From Acidobacteriaceae bacterium (GTDB taxonomy: Bacteria > Acidobacteriota > Terriglobia > Bryobacterales > Bryobacteraceae), in NCBI GenBank assembly GCA_019246575.1, contig JAFAQG010001020.1:1-9171 (forward strand): a stretch of 9,171 nucleotides of DNA, given 5' to 3'. The number at the start of each line of letters is the position of its first letter. Position 1 is the first letter of the stretch. The notes below the pieces were generated by a model. It was not told where the DNA came from. It saw only the letters and a list, made by a program, of their open reading frames with translations, and did not search any database. Below are positions 1 to 9,171 of the stretch, in pieces. A program made the translations under genes and the position numbers.

Positions 1-492
1 CCCCGTCACACCAGCCGCCGTCTGGGCCAAAAACGTGTAGTTACGACCGTTCAAGGGAAGATCGTTCACCTGTTGCGAGCCAATATCCTGACCCACTGTC
101 GAGGATTGCGTTTGAAGCAGCGGGATTGCCGAGGTGACTTCGACGGTCTGCGTAACTTGTCCAGGATTCAGACTGAAATCGACCTTCACCTGATCGTTGG
201 CGCCGACGGGAACGTTGGCGTGAGAAATCTTCTGGAATCCCGGGTGTTCCACAGTGACTGTGTACGTGCCGATTTTGATTGGGCTGAAACTATAGGTCCC
301 GTCACTGGCCGTTGCCGTATCGAGCGCCAGTCCGGTACCTTCGTTCGTCAGCGTGACTTTCGCCGCAGGAATGACGGCGCCGCTGGGATCCTGAACGGTG
401 CCGCGAATCGCGCCTTGATCGATCTGTGCCCAAGCGGAGCTCGCAAAGACGAGGAGCGCACTCGTGTGCAAAAAACGGTGATAGCCTGGCAT
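1..492 (-). CDS. TonB-dependent receptor, Oar-like, carboxypeptidase-regulatory-like N-terminus (partial, 3' end beyond the left edge)
   Basis: Reading the minus strand from the ATG at 492 gives 164 residues with no stop before the window edge. Residues 1-22 form a signal peptide (MPGYHRFLHTSALLVFASSA, then WA and Q), with likely cleavage after AWA. Residues about 24-105 fit a carboxypeptidase-regulatory-like beta-sandwich: GAIRGTVQDPSGAVIPAAKV, then GTYSFSPIKIGTYTVTVEHPG. The segment after it (QVTQTVEVTSAIPLLQTQSS, QQVNDLPLNGRNYTFLAQ) is the typical entry to the TonB plug domain in these proteins, where LPLNGRN is highly recurrent. The family forms outer-membrane beta-barrels of about 1000 residues or more that import large substrates using TonB energy; here only the start is visible. 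The start is supported by a strong purine-rich site just upstream. It is divergent from the glycosidase operon, so a role in taking up that operon's substrate is plausible but unproven. Confidence 0.88.
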   Translation of the reverse strand, partial: MPGYHRFLHTSALLVFASSAWAQIDQGAIRGTVQDPSGAVIPAAKVTLTNEGTGLALDTATASDGTYSFSPIKIGTYTVTVEHPGFQKISHANVPVGANDQVKVDFSLNPGQVTQTVEVTSAIPLLQTQSSTVGQDIGSQQVNDLPLNGRNYTFLAQTAAGVTG

Positions 493-495
493 AAA

Positions 496-504
496 TCCCC
501 CCTT
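496..504 (-). promoter_or_regulatory. Ribosome binding site of the TonB-dependent receptor gene
   Basis: On the minus strand the bases read AAGGGGGGA, followed by TTT and the ATG at 492. This G-rich Shine-Dalgarno-like site at short spacing fixes the receptor start and supports the minus-strand reading of this region. Confidence 0.6.
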
Positions 505-575
505 CGCTGCTGCATTCACTCTATATCAAACCGCCCCTGAGCGGCGCCTGCGGAAGAGGCGAGTAGACTACGTTC

Positions 576-586: not shown

Positions 587-3500
587 ATGGGCAACGAGAG
601 CTCCGTTCGCGCATGGGAAGAAACGGTTACGATTCCTACCTACCCGACTCCGCCGCCCGATAAGAATCCGATGTTTCTGGACAAGCGCATCTATCAGGGG
701 AGCAGCGGCAAGGTGTACCCGAATCCGTTTACCGACCGCGTTTCCGACGAAAAGCGCGACCTGCCGTACCGAGCCGTGTTTCTCGAGAACGAATTCTTAC
801 GGGTCATGATCCTGCCGGAGATCGGTGGGCGCATTCATGTTGGCCAGGACAAGACGAACGGTTACGAGTTTTTCTATCGCCAGCAGGTGATCAAGCCGGC
901 GCTCGTCGGGCTGCTCGGCCCGTGGATCTCAGGCGGGGTCGAATTCAATTGGCCACAGCACCACCGTCCTTCGACCTTCATGCCCGTCGAATATGCGATC
1001 GAAGAGCGGGAAGACGGCAGCCGTATCGTCTGGTTGAGCGAGCACGAGCCGATGAACCGCATGAAAGGCATGGCCGGCATTTGCCTCTATCCCGGTAAAG
1101 CGTTCCTTGAAGCAAAGGTTCGTCTATATAATCGGACACCATTTGTTCAGACCTTTCTCTGGTGGGCGAACGTCGGCGTGCATGTTCACGACCAGTATCA
1201 GGCGTTTTTTCCGCCCGACGTCCATTTCGTTGCCGATCACGCGAAACGCGCCATGTCGTGGTATCCCATCGCGCGCAACTTCTACTACGGAGTGGATTAC
1301 AGGCGAGGCGTTGATATCTCCTGGTATAAAAACATTCCCGTTCCGACCTCGTACATGGCGACGCAATCGAGTTATGACTTCGTCGGCGGTTACGATTACT
1401 CGAAACGCGCCGGGCTGGTTCATTACGCGAACCACCACATCGCACCCGGCAAGAAACTATGGACGTGGGGTAATGCCGAATTCGGCTACGCGTGGGACCG
1501 CGAGCTAACCGACTCGGATGGCCCTTACGTCGAGTTAATGGCCGGTGTTTACACGGACAACCAGCCGGATTTTTCCTGGCTTCACCCGTATGAAACGAAA
1601 ACCTTCAGTCAATACTGGTATCCGATTCAGGTGATAGGCCCGGCGAAGAACGCGAATCGTTTACTTGCGGTAAATCTCGAGCGTACGGACGAGAGTAAGT
1701 GGAGCATTGGCATCTACGCGACCGAATCTATAGCGAATGCCCGTGTCGTACTCACGGCCGGTAACAACACTGCGTTTGAAGAGCAGACCGATTTGCAACC
1801 CGGCAAACCATTTGTCGGCCGTGTTTCGGTTCTAACTGATGCCCAGCTTCGATTAACTGTTTTCGACCAGCATGGAAATGAGCTGATTCACTATGCCCCC
1901 CAACCGGCGCGCGATGTCGAGTTGCCCTCGCCCGCGACTGAGCCTCCTGCGCCCGAGGCGATTGCGAGCACGGATGAGCTGTATGTCACGGGTCTGCACC
2001 TCGAACAGTATCGGCACGCAACGCGCAGCCCCGAACCATACTGGCGCGAGGCATTGAAGCGCGACCCGGGCGACGCGCGCTCGAACAATGCGCTGGGCCT
2101 TCTCGCGCTCCGGCGAGGTAAGTTTGGCGAAGCAGGAGCCAATTTCGAGGCCGCGATAAGCCGGCTAACAAAACGTAATCCCAATCCCTACGACGGCGAA
2201 CCGTTCTACAACCTGGGCGTAGCTCGCACATTCGAGCAAAGAATCGATGATGCCTACGCGGCGTTCTATAAGGCGGCGTGGAATTACGCGTGGCAATCCG
2301 CGGCTTATTACGAACTCGCCGCAATCGATTCGAGCCGCGGATGTTTCGAACGCGCACTCGAGCATGTCGATCGTTCCCTGAACACGAATGTCGACCATCT
2401 GAAGGCTCGAAACCTCAAAGCCGCCATTCTGCGTAATCGAGAAACATACGAAGAAGCAACCCGCATTGCACGCGAAACAACGGAACTCGATCGGCTCGAC
2501 TTCTGGTGTCGCAACGAGATGCGACTCCTCGGCGAAGGCGACGAGCGCGACCGGCTCACGGATGAGCTTTTCGCAGTCATGCGCCACGACGCGCAGAACT
2601 GCCTCGATCTAGCGTTCGATTATGCACACGCGGGGCTCTGGACGGAAGCAGCGGAGCTCATCGACAGTTTCCTCGCGCACGCGAATGACACGCAACTCAG
2701 TCCCATGCTCTTCTACTCGCGCGCATTTGTTGCCAAGCAAAACCAGAACACAACCGATGTGGCGAAGTTTTATGAACTGGGCCGTAACGCTTCGCCCGAT
2801 TATTGTTTTCCCGCGCGGCTTGAAGAAATGATTGTGCTCGAAGCTGCTTTGAACCGCTTCCCTGAAGATGCGCGCGCCCATTACTACATAGGCAATCTGC
2901 TGTATGACAAACTTCGCCCCGAGGAGGCGATTCATCATTGGGAAGAGGCAGCGAGGCTGGATCCGGCGTTTTCAATTCCCTGGCGCAATCTCGGAATCGC
3001 GTATTACAACGTCCGCCGTAATTCAACCGAAGCTCTCGAGGCGTACCGCCGTGCCCGGCAGGCGAATCCAAATGACGCCCGCCTGCTCTACGAATTCGAC
3101 CAGCTACAAAAGCGGACTGGAGTAGCACCGGAACAACGGCTGGCCGAACTCGAGCAGCAGCGCGAGTTAGTCGATCAACGCGACGACCTCACAATAGAGT
3201 TAGTCACCCTATGTAACCAGACCGGCCAGAGCGAACGGGCACTCGCGATTTTGAGTTCTCGCCGGTTTCATCCATGGGAGGGCGGAGAAGGTCTCGTCTC
3301 GGGACAATTTTTCGCCGCCCATCTGCTGCTTGGGCGCGATGCTCTCGATGGGGGCGACGCCCGAACAGCATTACGTCACTTCGATGCTGCCCGAAGATAT
3401 CCGCCCAATCTGGGCGAAGGGAAACACTTACTGACCGAGGAGGCCGACGCCGATTATTTCAGCGGCATTGCCTCATCGCTGCTCGGGCGCGAACAACAAG

Positions 3501-3901
3501 CCGCGGCAAATTGGACGGCTGCCGCGGCCGCAAGACCTGGTCCCAGCCGGCACTCGTATTACGCCGCACTCGCGCTGAGAAAACTTGGACATGACGCTGC
3601 CGCGACCGAAGCTCTTACTAATTTGCGGCAAGCCGCCGAGGCGCAGATGCATGCGACCGTGAAGGTCGACTACTTTGCCACGTCGCTTCCGAATTTCCTG
3701 CTGTTCGATGACGATCTTCAGAAACGAAATCAAATCGATTGTCTATTTGTTCGCGGTCTTGCGAACCTCGGTCTGGGATACGACGGTGAAGCGGCCGGCG
3801 ACTTACAAAAAGTGCTCGATCTGGATCGGAATCATCTCTGGGCTCGGGTGGAACTCGCGCGCATTTTGACCCGCGCCGAACAGCCGGCACAAACAAGATG
3901 A
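587..3901 (+). CDS. DUF5107-type domain and tetratricopeptide-repeat protein, cytoplasmic
   Basis: This 1104-residue protein has no signal peptide or membrane segment, so it should be cytoplasmic. Residues about 20-350 resemble the DUF5107 family, which I read as having a galactose-mutarotase-like beta-sandwich. Supporting pieces are RVMILPEIGGRI (72-83), GYEFFYRQQ (92-100), GGVEFNWPQHH (116-126), WWANVGVHVHDQYQ (192-205) and YVELMAGVYTDNQPDFSWLHP (314-334). A small beta-rich segment (about 355-440) and a Pro/Ala-rich linker (about 441-462) follow. Residues about 480-1095 are helical TPR-type repeats, for example PYWREALKRDPGDARSNNAL, AIHHWEEAARLDPAFSIPWR and DLQKVLDLDRNHLWARVELA. His199, His201 and Glu316 are candidate polar centre residues by analogy with mutarotases; this is inference. 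The family's reaction is not established to my knowledge. The operon position, four bases into the sugar porter gene, suggests work on an imported sugar or a sensing or scaffold role. Confidence 0.85.
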   Translation: MGNESSVRAWEETVTIPTYPTPPPDKNPMFLDKRIYQGSSGKVYPNPFTDRVSDEKRDLPYRAVFLENEFLRVMILPEIGGRIHVGQDKTNGYEFFYRQQVIKPALVGLLGPWISGGVEFNWPQHHRPSTFMPVEYAIEEREDGSRIVWLSEHEPMNRMKGMAGICLYPGKAFLEAKVRLYNRTPFVQTFLWWANVGVHVHDQYQAFFPPDVHFVADHAKRAMSWYPIARNFYYGVDYRRGVDISWYKNIPVPTSYMATQSSYDFVGGYDYSKRAGLVHYANHHIAPGKKLWTWGNAEFGYAWDRELTDSDGPYVELMAGVYTDNQPDFSWLHPYETKTFSQYWYPIQVIGPAKNANRLLAVNLERTDESKWSIGIYATESIANARVVLTAGNNTAFEEQTDLQPGKPFVGRVSVLTDAQLRLTVFDQHGNELIHYAPQPARDVELPSPATEPPAPEAIASTDELYVTGLHLEQYRHATRSPEPYWREALKRDPGDARSNNALGLLALRRGKFGEAGANFEAAISRLTKRNPNPYDGEPFYNLGVARTFEQRIDDAYAAFYKAAWNYAWQSAAYYELAAIDSSRGCFERALEHVDRSLNTNVDHLKARNLKAAILRNRETYEEATRIARETTELDRLDFWCRNEMRLLGEGDERDRLTDELFAVMRHDAQNCLDLAFDYAHAGLWTEAAELIDSFLAHANDTQLSPMLFYSRAFVAKQNQNTTDVAKFYELGRNASPDYCFPARLEEMIVLEAALNRFPEDARAHYYIGNLLYDKLRPEEAIHHWEEAARLDPAFSIPWRNLGIAYYNVRRNSTEALEAYRRARQANPNDARLLYEFDQLQKRTGVAPEQRLAELEQQRELVDQRDDLTIELVTLCNQTGQSERALAILSSRRFHPWEGGEGLVSGQFFAAHLLLGRDALDGGDARTALRHFDAARRYPPNLGEGKHLLTEEADADYFSGIASSLLGREQQAAANWTAAAAARPGPSRHSYYAALALRKLGHDAAATEALTNLRQAAEAQMHATVKVDYFATSLPNFLLFDDDLQKRNQIDCLFVRGLANLGLGYDGEAAGDLQKVLDLDRNHLWARVELARILTRAEQPAQTR

Positions 3902-5274
3902 GCACAGCGCGAGAATCCGTCGCGGCTGAACAAGGCAGCTCCGTCTACGTCTATCTCGCTGCTATCGTGGCGGCAACAGCGGGCCTGCTGTTCGGATTCG
4001 ACATCGCTGTCATCAACGGCGCCCTCATCTTTCTGCAAAACGAATTTCACCTGACGGATGTCGAAACCGAAATCGCCACCAGCAGTTTGCTTTTCGGATG
4101 CATTTTCGGTTCGATGCTCGCGGGCTCGCTTACGGATCGCCTCGGGAGAAGACGCGTGCTCATGATCACTGGCCTGGGTTTTGCGGCTTCGGCCATTGGC
4201 GCCGCCATGCCGCGGACGTTAGGGCAATTCATTGCGGCTCGTTTCATCGGCGGCCTCGCAATCGGCGCGGGATCGGTACTTGCGCCACTTTATATTGCCG
4301 AAGTCTCGCCGGCCCAGAAGCGCGGGCGTCTCGTCTCGCTAAACCAGATGGCGATTGTGTCCGGAATCCTGATCGCGTACCTGGTGAATTGGAGTTTGTC
4401 CTTTCTTGGACCCGAAAGCTGGCGCTGGATGTTTGTGGCCGCCGCCGTACCCTCGATGGCGTTGTTTGTTGCGCTGTTCTTTGTGCCCGAAAGCCCGCGC
4501 TGGCTCGTAGAGCAGGGGCACAGTTCCGACGCACTCGCCGTCCTGACGCGCGTGAACGGCCCCGTCATCGCCGCGCAAGAACTCAAGAGCATCGAGGAAA
4601 CGGTCGCGGAGGAGAGCGGCACGTTACGCGAGCTGTTTATGCCAGCGTTTCGCCGCCCGTTGTGGATCGCTGTTTCACTCGCAATTCTGCAACAGATTAC
4701 AGGAATGAATACGGTCCTGTTTTACGGCGCTCTCATTTTCAAGAAACAAGTCGGGCACGAAACAGAGAACGCGGCCATCTTCGCCAATGTCATCGTTGGT
4801 CTGGTGAATGCTCTCGCGACCGTCGTCGCGCTCTGGCTGATCGATCGCCTCGGCAGGCGACCGTTGCTTATGGTTTCCACAAGCGTCATGGCGTTCTCAC
4901 AAGCTGGACTGGGCTTAGCATTTTTGAGTGGCAACCCGTCTGCCGCGCTTGTCCTCACGATGATGCTGTTTTGCGTCGCGGCATTCGCGATCGGCCTCGG
5001 CCCCGGTTTTTGGGTGTTGCTCTCCGAAGTATTTCCTACACGCATCCGCGGCCGTGCGATGTCGATCGCGACTGTTTGTTTGTGGTGCGCGAGCACCTTG
5101 CTCACCGTTACTTTTTTGACGCTAACCAAGGCGGTTTCCCCCACGGGCGCGTTCCTTATTTACGCAGGCTTTTGTGTCGTGACGTTTGCAATCGTGTGGC
5201 TCGCGGTACCCGAAACGAAGGGCCGCACGCTCGAGGAGATCGAACAATCATGGCTTCGACAAGAATCAACGTAG
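3898..5274 (+). CDS. MFS sugar porter (XylE/GalP/AraE type)
   Basis: This 458-residue protein has about twelve hydrophobic segments and the signatures of the sugar porter family of MFS transporters, which usually couple proton entry to monosaccharide uptake at the inner membrane. Visible marks are GLLFGFDIAVINGA (29-42, with the Asp of TM1), DRLGRR (80-85), RFIGGLAIGAGSVLAPLYIAEVSPAQKRGR (starting at 115, TM4 to loop), PESPRWL (197-203), QQITGMNTVLFY (265-276), DRLGRRP (316-322), GLGPGFWVLLSEVFPTRIRG (366-385) and PETKGRTLEEIE (438-449). In XylE-type porters the QQ pair, the following Asn (here Q265, Q266, N271) and the TM5 Gln (here Q150) line the sugar site, and all are present. Length is normal for the family. 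The start overlaps the previous stop as ATGA with no clear Shine-Dalgarno, so coupled translation is likely. The exact sugar is unknown; galactose or glucose would fit the neighbours. Confidence 0.95.
   Translation: MSTARESVAAEQGSSVYVYLAAIVAATAGLLFGFDIAVINGALIFLQNEFHLTDVETEIATSSLLFGCIFGSMLAGSLTDRLGRRRVLMITGLGFAASAIGAAMPRTLGQFIAARFIGGLAIGAGSVLAPLYIAEVSPAQKRGRLVSLNQMAIVSGILIAYLVNWSLSFLGPESWRWMFVAAAVPSMALFVALFFVPESPRWLVEQGHSSDALAVLTRVNGPVIAAQELKSIEETVAEESGTLRELFMPAFRRPLWIAVSLAILQQITGMNTVLFYGALIFKKQVGHETENAAIFANVIVGLVNALATVVALWLIDRLGRRPLLMVSTSVMAFSQAGLGLAFLSGNPSAALVLTMMLFCVAAFAIGLGPGFWVLLSEVFPTRIRGRAMSIATVCLWCASTLLTVTFLTLTKAVSPTGAFLIYAGFCVVTFAIVWLAVPETKGRTLEEIEQSWLRQEST
5233..5238 (+). promoter_or_regulatory. 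Ribosome binding site of the GH59 gene, inside the porter coding region
   Basis: GAGGAG lies within the last codons of the porter gene, 11 bases before the ATG at 5250. The spacing is slightly long. Together with the signal peptide that begins at this ATG it supports the start; the reading frame stays open far upstream, so frame length alone would give a wrong start. Confidence 0.5.
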
Positions 5275-7226
5275 GCGTGATCGGAACCGGCCTGTTGTTG
5301 GCTGCGGCAATTTCTGCGTGTGCCCAAACGAAAACGATCGTCATCGACGGCAAAGCCACCGGCCGCGTGTTCGAGGGCATCGGTGCGGCGAGTGCCGGTG
5401 CTTCCTCGCGGCTGCTTCCCGATTATGCGGAACCGTACCGCAGCCAGATTCTCGATTACTTATTTAAGCCGCATTACGGTGCTTCGCTGCAACATCTAAA
5501 GGTGGAGATCGGCGCGGACGTAAACTCTACCGACGGGTCCGAGCCGAGCCATATGCGCACGCCGCAAGATCACGATTACACTCGCGGCTACGAATGGTGG
5601 CTTATGGAGGAAGGGCGGCGCAGAAATCCGCAAATTATGCTCGATTCGCTGGCCTGGGGCGCGCCCGGCTGGATCGGCCGCGGCCATTTCTACTCCCCCG
5701 ATATGGCGAATTATGTCGCGGATTTCATCGAGGGCGCCAAACACGTCCATCATCTCGACATGAAGTACACGGGAATCTGGAATGAAAAACCAGATCCCGA
5801 TCTTGCCTACATCAAGCTACTTCACGAAACGCTCGAAAGGCGGCAACTCGGAGTGAAGGTGGTTTGTTGCGACCAATACCCGAGCGAAGGCCAATGGAAA
5901 ATCGTCGATTCCATCCGTAATGATGCCGACCTTGGCAAAGCCGTGTATGCCGTGACGGTCCACTATCCGCGCGTGAAAGGAAAAGTGACGACTCCTGTTT
6001 CGGCAAAGGAACTTGATAAACCGCTGTGGTCGAGCGAAGACCAGCCTGAGTCGAGTGCAGTCGTGATCCTCTCGCGCGACTGGCAGATCGGCGGCCGCAG
6101 TCTTGCCCGCCTGTACAACCGCAATTACCTGGAAGGAGCATTTACGAAAACCGAGATCTGGAGTCCGATTACTTCTTACTACGACATCCTCGCGGCCCCA
6201 AACTCCGGCCTCATGTACGCGAATACACCATGGTCCGGCCACTACAACGTGCAGGGCGCGATCTGGGCTACCGCTCATACGACGCAATTTGCGGAGCCCG
6301 GGTGGCAATATCTGGATTCAAGTTCTGGATATTTGCCCGAGCAGGGCAGCTATGTCGCTTTAAGATCCCCGAAAGGAAACGATTGGAGCCTTGTGCTCGA
6401 GACCATCGACGCCAAACAGCCGCAGCAGATCGCAATTGAAATCGCGGGAGGACTCTCTGCGGCAACCATTCGCGTTTGGGAAACGAACGCACAAAAGACT
6501 TTCGAGCACATCCGCGACCTTAGGCCGCAGAACGGGAGATTTAGCTTCACCGCCGATCCGGACTCGTTGTACACTCTGACGAGCACCACGGGGCAGGGAA
6601 AGGGTACGGCCCAACCGCCGCCAGACCGGCCTTTCCCGATGCCGTACGACGAAAATTTCGAGTCGACAACCCTCGATCGCGCGCCCAAATTTCTTTCCGA
6701 CCAAGACGGCGCATTCGAAGTACGTCCGTGCACCCGTCGGCAGGGTCGATGCCTCGAACAGGTTATAACGCAGATCCCGATTCCTTGGAGTCCCTTGCCA
6801 GACCCGTGGACTCTCGCCGGCGATGTGAATTGGAAAGATTACACCGTCAAATGCGATGTGCTGCTAACCGGTTCCGGAAGCATCACTCTGATGGGCCGCA
6901 TCGATTCCGCCGATGTCTTCAAAGATAAAAAAGCCAAATGGCCGAGCGGGTATATTTTTAGCCTGAGTGCCGGTGGAAATTGGAAACTGGTGAGCGCGAA
7001 GTACAAAGCAGAGCCGCAAACCCTTGCTTCGGGCGATACGCCGATGGAAATCAATCGATGGCATCACGCCGAACTCAAGTTCAAATCGACACAGATCGGA
7101 GTCATGCTGGACGGGTACAGTATCGCAAGCGTATCCGATAACTCGCATACGAATGGGATGTTCGGCATCGGGACCGGGTGGAATAAAGCACAGTTCGATA
7201 ACCTGTCAGTTACTCAATCGGAATAA
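5250..7226 (+). CDS. GH59 family glycosidase, galactosylceramidase (GALC)-like, exported
   Basis: This 658-residue protein aligns by eye with animal GALC along its whole length (about 640-670 residues). Shared blocks include FEGIGAASAG (41-50), EPYRSQILDYLFKPHYGASL (61-80), KVEIGAD..STDGSEPSHM (84-102), RGYEWWLMEE (112-121), YTGIWNE (173-179), LWSSED (259-264), TTQFAEPGW (344-352) and GSYVAL (366-371). The family uses a retaining mechanism; Glu179 in IWNE matches the acid/base and Glu263 in WSSED the nucleophile. Domains are a TIM barrel (about 41-335), beta-sandwich (about 27-40 and 336-450), linker with PFPMPYDENFES (461-472), and a lectin-like jelly roll to the end. Family activity is release of beta-galactose; whether the substrate is a galactolipid or another galactoside cannot be read here. 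The N-terminus is a signal peptide; ISAC (21-24) could be a lipobox, or cleavage could follow ACA. It overlaps the porter gene by 25 bases. Confidence 0.93.
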   Translation: MASTRINVGVIGTGLLLAAAISACAQTKTIVIDGKATGRVFEGIGAASAGASSRLLPDYAEPYRSQILDYLFKPHYGASLQHLKVEIGADVNSTDGSEPSHMRTPQDHDYTRGYEWWLMEEGRRRNPQIMLDSLAWGAPGWIGRGHFYSPDMANYVADFIEGAKHVHHLDMKYTGIWNEKPDPDLAYIKLLHETLERRQLGVKVVCCDQYPSEGQWKIVDSIRNDADLGKAVYAVTVHYPRVKGKVTTPVSAKELDKPLWSSEDQPESSAVVILSRDWQIGGRSLARLYNRNYLEGAFTKTEIWSPITSYYDILAAPNSGLMYANTPWSGHYNVQGAIWATAHTTQFAEPGWQYLDSSSGYLPEQGSYVALRSPKGNDWSLVLETIDAKQPQQIAIEIAGGLSAATIRVWETNAQKTFEHIRDLRPQNGRFSFTADPDSLYTLTSTTGQGKGTAQPPPDRPFPMPYDENFESTTLDRAPKFLSDQDGAFEVRPCTRRQGRCLEQVITQIPIPWSPLPDPWTLAGDVNWKDYTVKCDVLLTGSGSITLMGRIDSADVFKDKKAKWPSGYIFSLSAGGNWKLVSAKYKAEPQTLASGDTPMEINRWHHAELKFKSTQIGVMLDGYSIASVSDNSHTNGMFGIGTGWNKAQFDNLSVTQSE

Positions 7227-7233
7227 TTTGTAA

Positions 7234-9171
7234 ATGACTCGTCTCTTCTCAACCATTCTGATTGCAGGATTGCTGGGTTCAATGTCCCCGGCTGCACAGA
7301 ATGCCGCAGCAACCAAGGACGAGACATCTGTGCGTTCACATTTGCCGCTGCGTACCGACGGTAGTTGGATTGTGGATCGCACAGGCAAGCGATTCAAATT
7401 GCGTAGCGTGAACTGGTATGGGGCAGAGGAGCAGGATCACGTTGTCGCCGGGTTAGAGCTCGAAAAGCTGAGCCTTATCGTACAGCGAATCAAGGCGATG
7501 GGGTTCAACTCCGTGCGCCTGCTGTGGTCGAACGAACTGTTTGAAATGAATCCCATCGTCCCCGATTACGCCATTAGGGGGAACCCGGAGTTCAGAGGAA
7601 TGCGCGCGATGCGGGTTTTCGATGCGGTGGTACACGCGATCGCAGATGCCGGGCTGCTCATCGTTCTTGATAATCACACCAGCAACGGCGATTGGTGTTG
7701 CGGCAACAACGATGGCAACGGCCTCTGGTACAACCAGGACTACCCGGAACAAAACTGGATCTCCGACTGGATGCACATCGTCGCGCGCTATCGAGATGTG
7801 CCGGAAGTGGTCGGCGCGGACCTGCGGAATGAGTTGCGCGCCGGTGCAACTTGGGGCGGCGCCCCATCTACAGATTGGCACGCAGCGGCCGAACGAGGCG
7901 GCAACGCTGTCCTTAGCGCCAATCGCAATCTTCTCATCTTTGTGGAAGGGATCAATTACGCTCTGGACCTCACCGGAGTCGCACGTTTACGCGTGCAGTT
8001 AGGTGTTCCGAATCGGCTAGTCTACTCCGCGCACGATTACCCTTGGGATCATAACGGCATCACAACCGAGCAACAACTTTTCGCACAGCTGGATCAGAAA
8101 TGGGGCTTCGTAACAGCGCCCGGACAGCCTTACACTGCGCCTATCTGGATCGGCGAGTTCGGAACGTGTCACGATCAGCCGTCATGTCTCACAAGCTCGA
8201 GCCCTGGCACGAACGGATTCTGGTTTCAAGGCTTTCGCGATTACTTAGACCGGCGCGATTTTGATTGGGCATATTGGGCGCTAAATGGGACCCAGGCGCG
8301 TGGAACGGGACGAACCTTCGGCTATGAAGAGAGCTATGGCGTCCTCGATCCATATTGGAATGCGCCCGCTCTCCCGTTGGTCATTCCACCGCCATCCGTG
8401 AATCTCTTGACGATGTTGCAGACCGTTATGCAGCCGCTACAGGGACCGGGAGCCGGAAGGCTGAATCTTGCGCCGGTTGTGAGCATCATTGCCCCACCGC
8501 CCGGTTCGATCTTTGCGGCAGGTTCGAACGTTGCGATCTCCGCCAATGCGAGCCGGCGTGCGGGCTTAATCCAGAAGGTGGATTTCTACGCGAATGGAGA
8601 GTCGATCGGTAGCTCGATAACAGCTCCGTTTCAGATTGAATGGACCAACGTACCGCCGGGCAACTTTGAAATCACCGCCGTCGCGACTGGTTCGGGCGAC
8701 ACTGTTGGCTCAACAACGGGCATCTCCGCGCCCGTTCGAGTGATGGTCTTCGATTACGAAAACTACGCGCCAGGTACCGGCAACAGCATCGCTATCGACT
8801 TTGGCAATTACCGCACCACACCCATGTCTCTCACGGAAATGGCCGGCGTCGTTCCGCAACAAAACTGGAATGGAGCATACGGGAACTCCGGCTCTCTAGG
8901 TTCGCTTGTCGACAAAAGCGGCAGTACGACTGGCGCTCAGGTTACGTGGGCGGCTAGCAACATGTGGTACACGAGCACTCCCGATCAGCCCGGGGACTTC
9001 CGGATGATGCGCGGCTATCTCGACAATACGAATACTTCGCCTACGATTGTTACTGTTTCGCAACTCCCCAATGCATTTGCCCATTACGACGTGTACGTGT
9101 ACTTCGACGGTGGAAACGGGACAGTGGAACGATTGGGGAACTATCGCATACTTACGAGTCAAGATGCGTCG
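7234..9171 (+). CDS. GH5 glycosidase with Ig-like and extra C-terminal domain, exported (partial, 3' end beyond the right edge)
   Basis: The frame is open from the ATG at 7234 to the edge, giving 646 residues without a stop. Residues 1-21 are a signal peptide ending near SPAAQ. Residues about 40-375 are a GH5 TIM barrel with all the usual active-site residues: Arg95 (NSVRLLW), His148 (LDNH), Asn199-Glu200 (DLRNE, acid/base), His267 and Tyr269 (SAHDY), Glu308 (IWIGEFG, nucleophile) and Trp348 (AYWALNG). DNHTSNGDWCCGNNDGNG with GADLRNELR resembles the GH5_11-type proteins of plants, fungi and bacteria more than classical cellulases; this rests on memory of motifs. A linker with a short helix (about 380-410) leads to an Ig-like domain (about 413-503, NLAPVVSIIAPPPGSIFAAG, KVDFYANGESIG). 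A further beta-rich domain starts at about 504. Only seven bases separate it from the GH59 stop, and its Shine-Dalgarno is weak (GGAA at 7220-7223). The substrate is not predictable; a beta-linked glycan or glycoconjugate is expected. Confidence 0.92.
   Translation, partial: MTRLFSTILIAGLLGSMSPAAQNAAATKDETSVRSHLPLRTDGSWIVDRTGKRFKLRSVNWYGAEEQDHVVAGLELEKLSLIVQRIKAMGFNSVRLLWSNELFEMNPIVPDYAIRGNPEFRGMRAMRVFDAVVHAIADAGLLIVLDNHTSNGDWCCGNNDGNGLWYNQDYPEQNWISDWMHIVARYRDVPEVVGADLRNELRAGATWGGAPSTDWHAAAERGGNAVLSANRNLLIFVEGINYALDLTGVARLRVQLGVPNRLVYSAHDYPWDHNGITTEQQLFAQLDQKWGFVTAPGQPYTAPIWIGEFGTCHDQPSCLTSSSPGTNGFWFQGFRDYLDRRDFDWAYWALNGTQARGTGRTFGYEESYGVLDPYWNAPALPLVIPPPSVNLLTMLQTVMQPLQGPGAGRLNLAPVVSIIAPPPGSIFAAGSNVAISANASRRAGLIQKVDFYANGESIGSSITAPFQIEWTNVPPGNFEITAVATGSGDTVGSTTGISAPVRVMVFDYENYAPGTGNSIAIDFGNYRTTPMSLTEMAGVVPQQNWNGAYGNSGSLGSLVDKSGSTTGAQVTWAASNMWYTSTPDQPGDFRMMRGYLDNTNTSPTIVTVSQLPNAFAHYDVYVYFDGGNGTVERLGNYRILTSQDAS
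8743..9171 (+). other. Region encoding an unassigned C-terminal beta-rich domain of the GH5 protein (partial)
   Basis: Residues about 504-646 follow the Ig-like domain. They contain IDFGNYRTTPMSLTEMAGVV, PQQNWNGAYGNSGSLGSLVD, GAQVTWAASNMWYTSTP, MMRGYLDNTNTSPTIVTVSQLP and YDVYVYFDGGNG. Similar blocks (an FG..., AGVVPQ.NWN, a V.W segment, GYLD, V..LP, YDVYVY.DG order) occur in large secreted proteins of Verrucomicrobia, Planctomycetes and Acidobacteria, as far as I recall. The pattern suggests a compact beta-sandwich, perhaps for carbohydrate or surface binding. I cannot attach a named family. Confidence 0.5.

Follow-up and report, generated by a model that had tools for sequence, protein, structure and literature searches.

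A stretch of 9,171 nucleotides from an Acidobacteriaceae bacterium, the whole of which is referred to here as the window, encodes a protein that belongs to the GH59 sequence family, to which the animal galactosylceramidase (GALC) also belongs. The protein is best explained, at a probability put at about 0.6, as an acidobacterial GH59 retaining exo-beta-galactosidase that is exported, forms part of a galactose-uptake operon and acts on galactose-bearing glycans or small galactosides. As both the loop bearing R380 of GALC and the saposin contacts of that enzyme are missing, it should not be named galactosylceramidase.

Family and domain architecture

The Glyco_hydro_59 profile (PF02057) is matched over its full length (1-294 of 294; 344.1 bits, cut-off 27) and is followed by Glyco_hydro_59M (PF17387), the central beta-sandwich at residues 358-448 (E-value 1.1e-6), which scores barely above threshold (29.2 bits, cut-off 28), and by Glyco_hydro_59_C (PF21708; 79 bits, cut-off 27). 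The best solved relatives are two mouse GALC PDB sequences (E-value 6e-110, 371.6 bits, query residues 31-654), and the predicted structure aligns with 3zr5 across residues 28-658, including the lectin-like domain. The three-domain architecture of GALC is thus present, and the proposal of the sequence-only reading, that this is a full-length counterpart of the animal enzyme, holds on profile, sequence and structure alike. Searches with PADLOC and NCBIfam assigned no family to the protein.

The next solved relative is AcXbh30A (7n6h) of GH30 subfamily 10 (9.4e-7, 17-20% identity), the match of which stops at residue 447 and so is without the lectin-like tail; with Foldseek it gives an E-value of 3e-23 compared with 5e-65 for GALC. 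Membership of GH30, the other clan GH-A family against which the profile was checked, was rejected, as its scores are far below those for GH59 and GALC at the levels of profile, sequence and structure.

The gene start at 5250 agrees with the alignment of a Terriglobia relative (locus L001) from the first residue, while a longer in-frame ORF (4098-7226) was taken as an artefact because it overlaps most of the MFS gene. By eye, the N-terminus is hydrophobic and resembles a signal peptide or a lipoprotein signal, with ISAC at residues 21-24, and the protein is probably exported from the cytoplasm. The features of the window are given in Table 1.

Table 1. Genes of the window and features of the GH59 protein, with positions in the window
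Feature	Position	Strand	Basis
N-terminal part of carboxypeptidase-regulatory-like domain protein, incomplete	1..519	-	PF13620 1.4e-22
DUF5107 and TPR protein, 1104 aa; stop overlaps MFS start	587..3901	+	Pfam, structure model
MFS sugar porter; overlaps GH59 start by 25 bp	3898..5274	+	Sugar_tr 1e-114
GH59 protein, ATG start, 658 aa	5250..7226	+	Pfam, PDB sequence and structure matches
(beta/alpha)8 barrel of GH59 protein, residues 41-346	5370..6287	+	PF02057 8.4e-103
E179, aligned with mouse acid/base E182	5784..5786	+	Sequence alignment
E263, aligned with mouse nucleophile E258	6036..6038	+	Sequence alignment
Extra loop QPESSAVVILSRDWQIGGR behind nucleophile, longer than in mouse	6042..6098	+	Alignment
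Short loop ETIDAKQPQQIAI; vertebrate enzyme 14 residues longer there, including C378 and R380	6399..6437	+	Alignment
C-terminal lectin-like domain of GH59 protein, residues 484-656	6699..7217	+	PF21708 5.5e-22
Endoglucanase-like GH5 protein carrying a Big_7 domain, cut off by window end	7234..9171	+	PF00150 1.8e-31

Active site, R380 loop and saposin contacts

Residues were compared in an alignment of mouse GALC with 120 animal matches, every named one of which is vertebrate, and 323 bacterial rows (322 distinct), these being the window protein and its nearest relatives (120 rows), the relatives of a Kitasatospora protein (120 rows, all named ones actinobacterial) and ORFs of loci L001-L081 (83 rows). 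Both catalytic glutamates, said in the sequence-only reading to be kept, are indeed Glu at the GALC positions. In addition, T94, W136, N178, W304 and W513 of the protein align with mouse T93, W135, N181, W291 and W524, the last two of which we take to be pocket residues, and all five, together with E182 and E258, are conserved in almost all rows of the family alignment. According to PMC12008523, the sites at mouse 93, 135, 181 and 380 touch the substrate while 182 and 258 are catalytic; the source numbers these as 109, 151, 197, 396, 198 and 274, and the conversion by an offset of 16 was made in this analysis. The linker carries the motif PFPMPYDENFES at residue 461 (6630-6665) and the lectin-like tail GDVNWKDYTVKCDV at residue 524 (6819-6860), with IGTG at residue 640 (a second copy lies at residue 11) and FDN at residue 649 (7194-7202). 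These had been put forward as motifs shared with animals; all are present, but the animal strings then quoted for the first two differ slightly from the mouse counterparts, KPFPTNYKDDFN and GDHHWTNMTVQCDV. The post-nucleophile loop is typical of acidobacterial rows and is missing or different in most other bacterial ones.

The R380 column is a gap in 323 of 323 bacterial rows, the window protein included, although these rows are the top of ranked lists and not a random draw, so that loop-bearing bacterial GH59 proteins may exist elsewhere. Segment 369-394 has 12 residues in 322 of these rows, the last being a fragment. On the animal side, which consists of vertebrates (there was no invertebrate or protist GALC among the 120 proteins listed by the mouse-seeded search), the column holds Arg and the segment 26 residues in 110 of 121 rows; the other 11, with a gap at R380, are probably short isoforms. 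An Arg occurs within 375-390 in 15 bacterial rows, never in the R380 column itself, and one elsewhere in the chain, such as that in SRDW of the acidobacterial post-nucleophile loop, could replace it.

The positions of the mouse saposin A contacts R520 and T523, as given in PMC5764952, are also changed in the alignment, being Ile509 and Pro512 in the window protein. Among the 120 rows of this protein and its nearest relatives, Pro stands at T523 in 119, while the R520 position is Lys or Arg in 104. Judged by the aligned residues, the galactose pocket is largely kept and the parts predicted to meet the leaving group and saposin are not. The earlier description of the protein as complete and lysosomal-type consequently stands for its architecture, but not for the R380 loop or the two saposin positions. 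Compared with mouse and human GALC (GH59; 3zr5, 4ccc, 5nxb), therefore, the protein is without the R380/C378 loop, has altered saposin-contact residues and a longer post-nucleophile loop, and belongs to a bacterial sugar-gene context rather than to the lysosome.

These differences bear on whether the protein could be a true galactosylceramidase that breaks down galactosylceramide or similar glycosphingolipids, derived from soil animals, from fungi or from bacteria that make sphingolipids. Its full-length homology and the retention of the catalytic and most pocket residues would agree with such a role, but it is very unlikely given the missing loop and the Ile and Pro at R520 and T523. PMC4949656 states that R380 binds substrate directly and that activity depends critically on it; the same source and PMC5031207 report that the R380W variant is secreted and shows co-localisation with lysosomes, its defect being held to be catalytic. 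According to PMC5764952, E182 and R380 shift conformation upon substrate binding, letting the leaving group be positioned. Moreover, there is no ceramidase among the families listed for the GH59 loci, which include two neighbour tallies (the best 25 of 57 and the best 25 of 58 families). With the R380 loop missing, a galactosidase that scavenges sugar is the likelier reading, ahead of an enzyme of sphingolipids.

The glycone may also be other than galactose, with a shifted pocket accepting, for example, beta-D-fucose or alpha-L-arabinopyranose, in which case "galactosidase" would be an inherited label. Mouse position 303 differs, as does the R380 loop, the sugar porter encoded beside the protein leaves the sugar unfixed, and no characterised bacterial GH59 was found in the open-access literature searched, where matches are overcounted since the text term GH59 also picks up "GH5_9" (in PMC3526467 and probably in PMC5604414). 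Nevertheless, this is quite unlikely, as almost every row retains the equivalents of T93, W135, N181, W291 and W524, and GH59 proteins have modules of the galactose-binding type and alpha-galactosidase among their partners.

Gene neighbourhood and fusion partners

The four plus-strand genes for the DUF5107-TPR, MFS, GH59 and GH5 proteins overlap or almost touch, the GH5 start being 7 bp past the GH59 stop. The placing of the GH59 gene in a sugar-use operon by the earlier reading was judged right. The MFS protein is of the XylE/GlcP kind, which leaves the transported sugar unfixed. The first 480 residues of the DUF5107-TPR protein model as a galactose-mutarotase fold (pLDDT 69.7), and its H125, H126 and E316 are kept in 24-25 of 25 rows. 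The partial protein at the start of the window may be an outer-membrane receptor like those that adjoin GH59 relatives; at L001 a neighbour combines a carboxypeptidase-regulatory-like domain with OMP_b-brl_4. For the galactosidase reading, the exported GH59 protein would cut terminal beta-galactose off its substrates, the MFS porter would import the galactose released, and the DUF5107-TPR protein may act downstream on the sugar or sense it.

In other genomes, an MFS relative lies immediately upstream of GH59 at 26 of 47 acidobacterial loci, the other 21 being without an adjacent MFS gene, and the order DUF5107-MFS-GH59 is found at 19 of 38 loci. DUF5107 is present in 20 of 24 GH59 genomes as against 30 of 126 others, and in 16 of the 24 the distance between the two is no more than 10 kb; the four GH59 genomes without a strong DUF5107 include G512, which like G446 and G566 has a weak match (E-values of the three 1.6e-5 to 2.0e-4) that was scored as negative. 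The nearest solved relatives of the GH5 protein are CelE2 and E1 endocellulase. GH5 was rejected as a fixed partner; being near GH59 at only 5 of 50 acidobacterial loci, it says little. Tallies of Pfam families among same-strand neighbours (48 of 61 acidobacterial and 45 of 46 other genes; best 25 of 57 and best 25 of 58 families listed) gave no dominant pathway and no family with more than three members.

Naturally occurring fusions carry more weight as hints than neighbouring genes do. At L077 (Verrucomicrobia) GH59 is joined in one protein with a full GH36 alpha-galactosidase, and by eye nothing resembling a signal lies between the two; L047 has a GH36 remnant. At L075 (Bacteroidia) the fusion partner is a sulfatase with SSPTR, presumably the sulfatase signature motif, and at L055, L064 and L073 sulfatases with C-x-P-x-R directly adjoin GH59, which gives a minimum of 4 among 30 non-acidobacterial loci with a sulfatase fused to or beside GH59. 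Modules of the galactose-binding type are attached as well, namely F5/8C in 6 of 15 bacterial GH59 ORFs scanned singly, and ricin-B on most of the 120 Kitasatospora-protein relatives (116 by QxW count). The earlier reading was also right to ask about the natural substrate, which the fusions, by analogy, would narrow towards galactose-rich glycans, sometimes capped with alpha-galactose or sulfated, the main rival being galactolipid head groups.

In such galactolipid salvage, beta-galactose would be removed from plant or algal MGDG, from DGDG after the action of an alpha-galactosidase, or from the galactosylglycerol left after deacylation. DGDG consists of an alpha-Gal on a beta-Gal, which would suit the GH36-GH59 fusion of L077. 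It would also suit the GH27-like genes that precede GH59 by one or two genes at L038 (by Pfam) and at L040, L041 and L050 (by similarity). The loss of the saposin contacts would fit a water-soluble head group. Vertebrate GALC is also stated, in PMC3208571, to degrade monogalactosyldiglyceride. Galactolipid salvage is nonetheless unlikely, as the ricin-B and F5/8C modules and the sulfatases indicate glycans, and a genome search for GH36 (PF02065) placed it no further than 10 kb from GH59 in just 1 of the 24 acidobacterial genomes, leaving 23 without a GH36 at that distance. For the same reason the fusions may not speak for the acidobacterial clade. GH36-like stretches occur in the flanks of L011, L013, L023 and L030, two of them confirmed by Pfam; with a GH36- or GH27-like stretch at 8 of 50 acidobacterial loci and GH36 in the single genome, a general alpha-galactosidase partnership in Acidobacteriota was rejected.

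Relatives and evolution of the family

The protein is not unusual: relatives are present in Acidobacteriota, Verrucomicrobiota, Bacteroidota, Planctomycetota and Actinomycetota. The protein search gave 4,308 relatives at an E-value of 1e-5 or below among 7,997 candidates, the nearest ones with an organism name being Acidobacteriaceae. A two-pattern scan with one genome per species gave 480 coding places among 495 stretches, the best 80 of which were retained; these are mostly from Acidobacteriota and Verrucomicrobiota, with Bacteroidota, Planctomycetota, Hydrogenedentes, an armatimonad and others also represented. Strong matches (E-value <1e-80) were found in 7 of 297 Acidobacteriota genomes, 24 of 150 genomes of one acidobacterial family and 11 of 141 genomes of a verrucomicrobial class, the centre genome of each draw having been chosen for carrying GH59 and PF02057 matches below 75 bits, probably GH30 relatives, having been left out of the counts. 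In a quick tree of 88 rows, built after the removal of four that were short or truncated, the window protein pairs with L001 (SH-aLRT 100) inside an acidobacterial clade.

The actinobacterial GH59 proteins with ricin-B share the R380-less 12-residue loop and the catalytic residues in 120 of 120 rows; unlike the window protein, most of them end in an additional trefoil lectin at the C-terminus. At L081, the one actinobacterial locus read, the annotation shows no DUF5107, and the MFS gene next to GH59 runs on the opposite strand. Several of these ricin-B proteins are annotated as galactosylceramidase.

It is possible, though doubtful, that the bacterial GH59 proteins represent an older, glycan-directed form and that the vertebrate GALC lineage later gained the 14-residue loop and the saposin interface, thereby becoming a sphingolipid enzyme. 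The GH30 chain aligned with the window protein and GALC is also without the long loop of the R380 region, a hint, from one outgroup alignment and vertebrate GALC, that the loop is an animal-side gain. If this were true, the sulfatase-GH59 fusion of L075 would, like the paired sulfatase and GH59 genes, form a bacterial parallel to the animal step in which arylsulfatase A is followed by GALC.

GALC is the enzyme lost in Krabbe disease, in which R380 is mutated, and mutations of R380 disable it. The large R380-less bacterial branch offers natural enzymes for asking what the role of this residue is, and a soluble, saposin-free comparison. For bacterial proteins labelled as galactosylceramidase, the substrate should be treated as unknown. 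Finally, through its linkage with a sugar porter and GH59, DUF5107, which a single paper of the open-access literature searched names, gains a functional context.

Neighbours and fusion partners of GH59

Genes and fusions considered alongside GH59 (L, loci with GH59 relatives)
Feature	Location	Position	Strand	Remark
Sulfatase-GH59 fusion	L075 (Bacteroidia)	2625-6005		single ORF
GH36 alpha-galactosidase-GH59 fusion	L077 (Verrucomicrobia)	7814-11818		
GH36-GH59 fusion	L047	1-2964		GH36 domain in pieces only; start is contig end
DUF5107-TPR protein	window	587-3901	+	linked to GH59
GH5 protein with Big_7 domain	window	7234-9171	+	near E1/CelE2 endocellulases
Two adjoining GH59 genes	L028	7818-9935 and 9980-11938		

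Besides the fusion, sulfatase and GH59 are present as gene pairs at three loci (L055, L064, and L073). In the DUF5107-TPR protein the block GPWISGGVEFNWPQHHRPST is near-invariant across 25 rows, among them the A5 rows. The tail of the window GH5 protein is without domain assignment and extends past the window end.

Upstream of GH59 in three acidobacterial loci (L038, L041, and L050) lie genes for a GH27-like alpha-galactosidase and a RhaT-like transporter. The post-nucleophile loop (after E263 in the window protein) is EFFYYT in the GH59 proteins of these loci.

Multiple copies and tree placement

The adjoining GH59 proteins of L028 share 49% and 59% identity with the window protein and are placed in separate regions of the tree. 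The acidobacterial genome G455 has three GH59 copies within approximately 22 kb (C13, 68104-90032), with a DUF5107 sitting amid them. The GH59 of L037, from a contig titled Gammaproteobacteria, nests within the acidobacterial clade of the tree, a placement which may reflect either a mislabelled bin or transfer.
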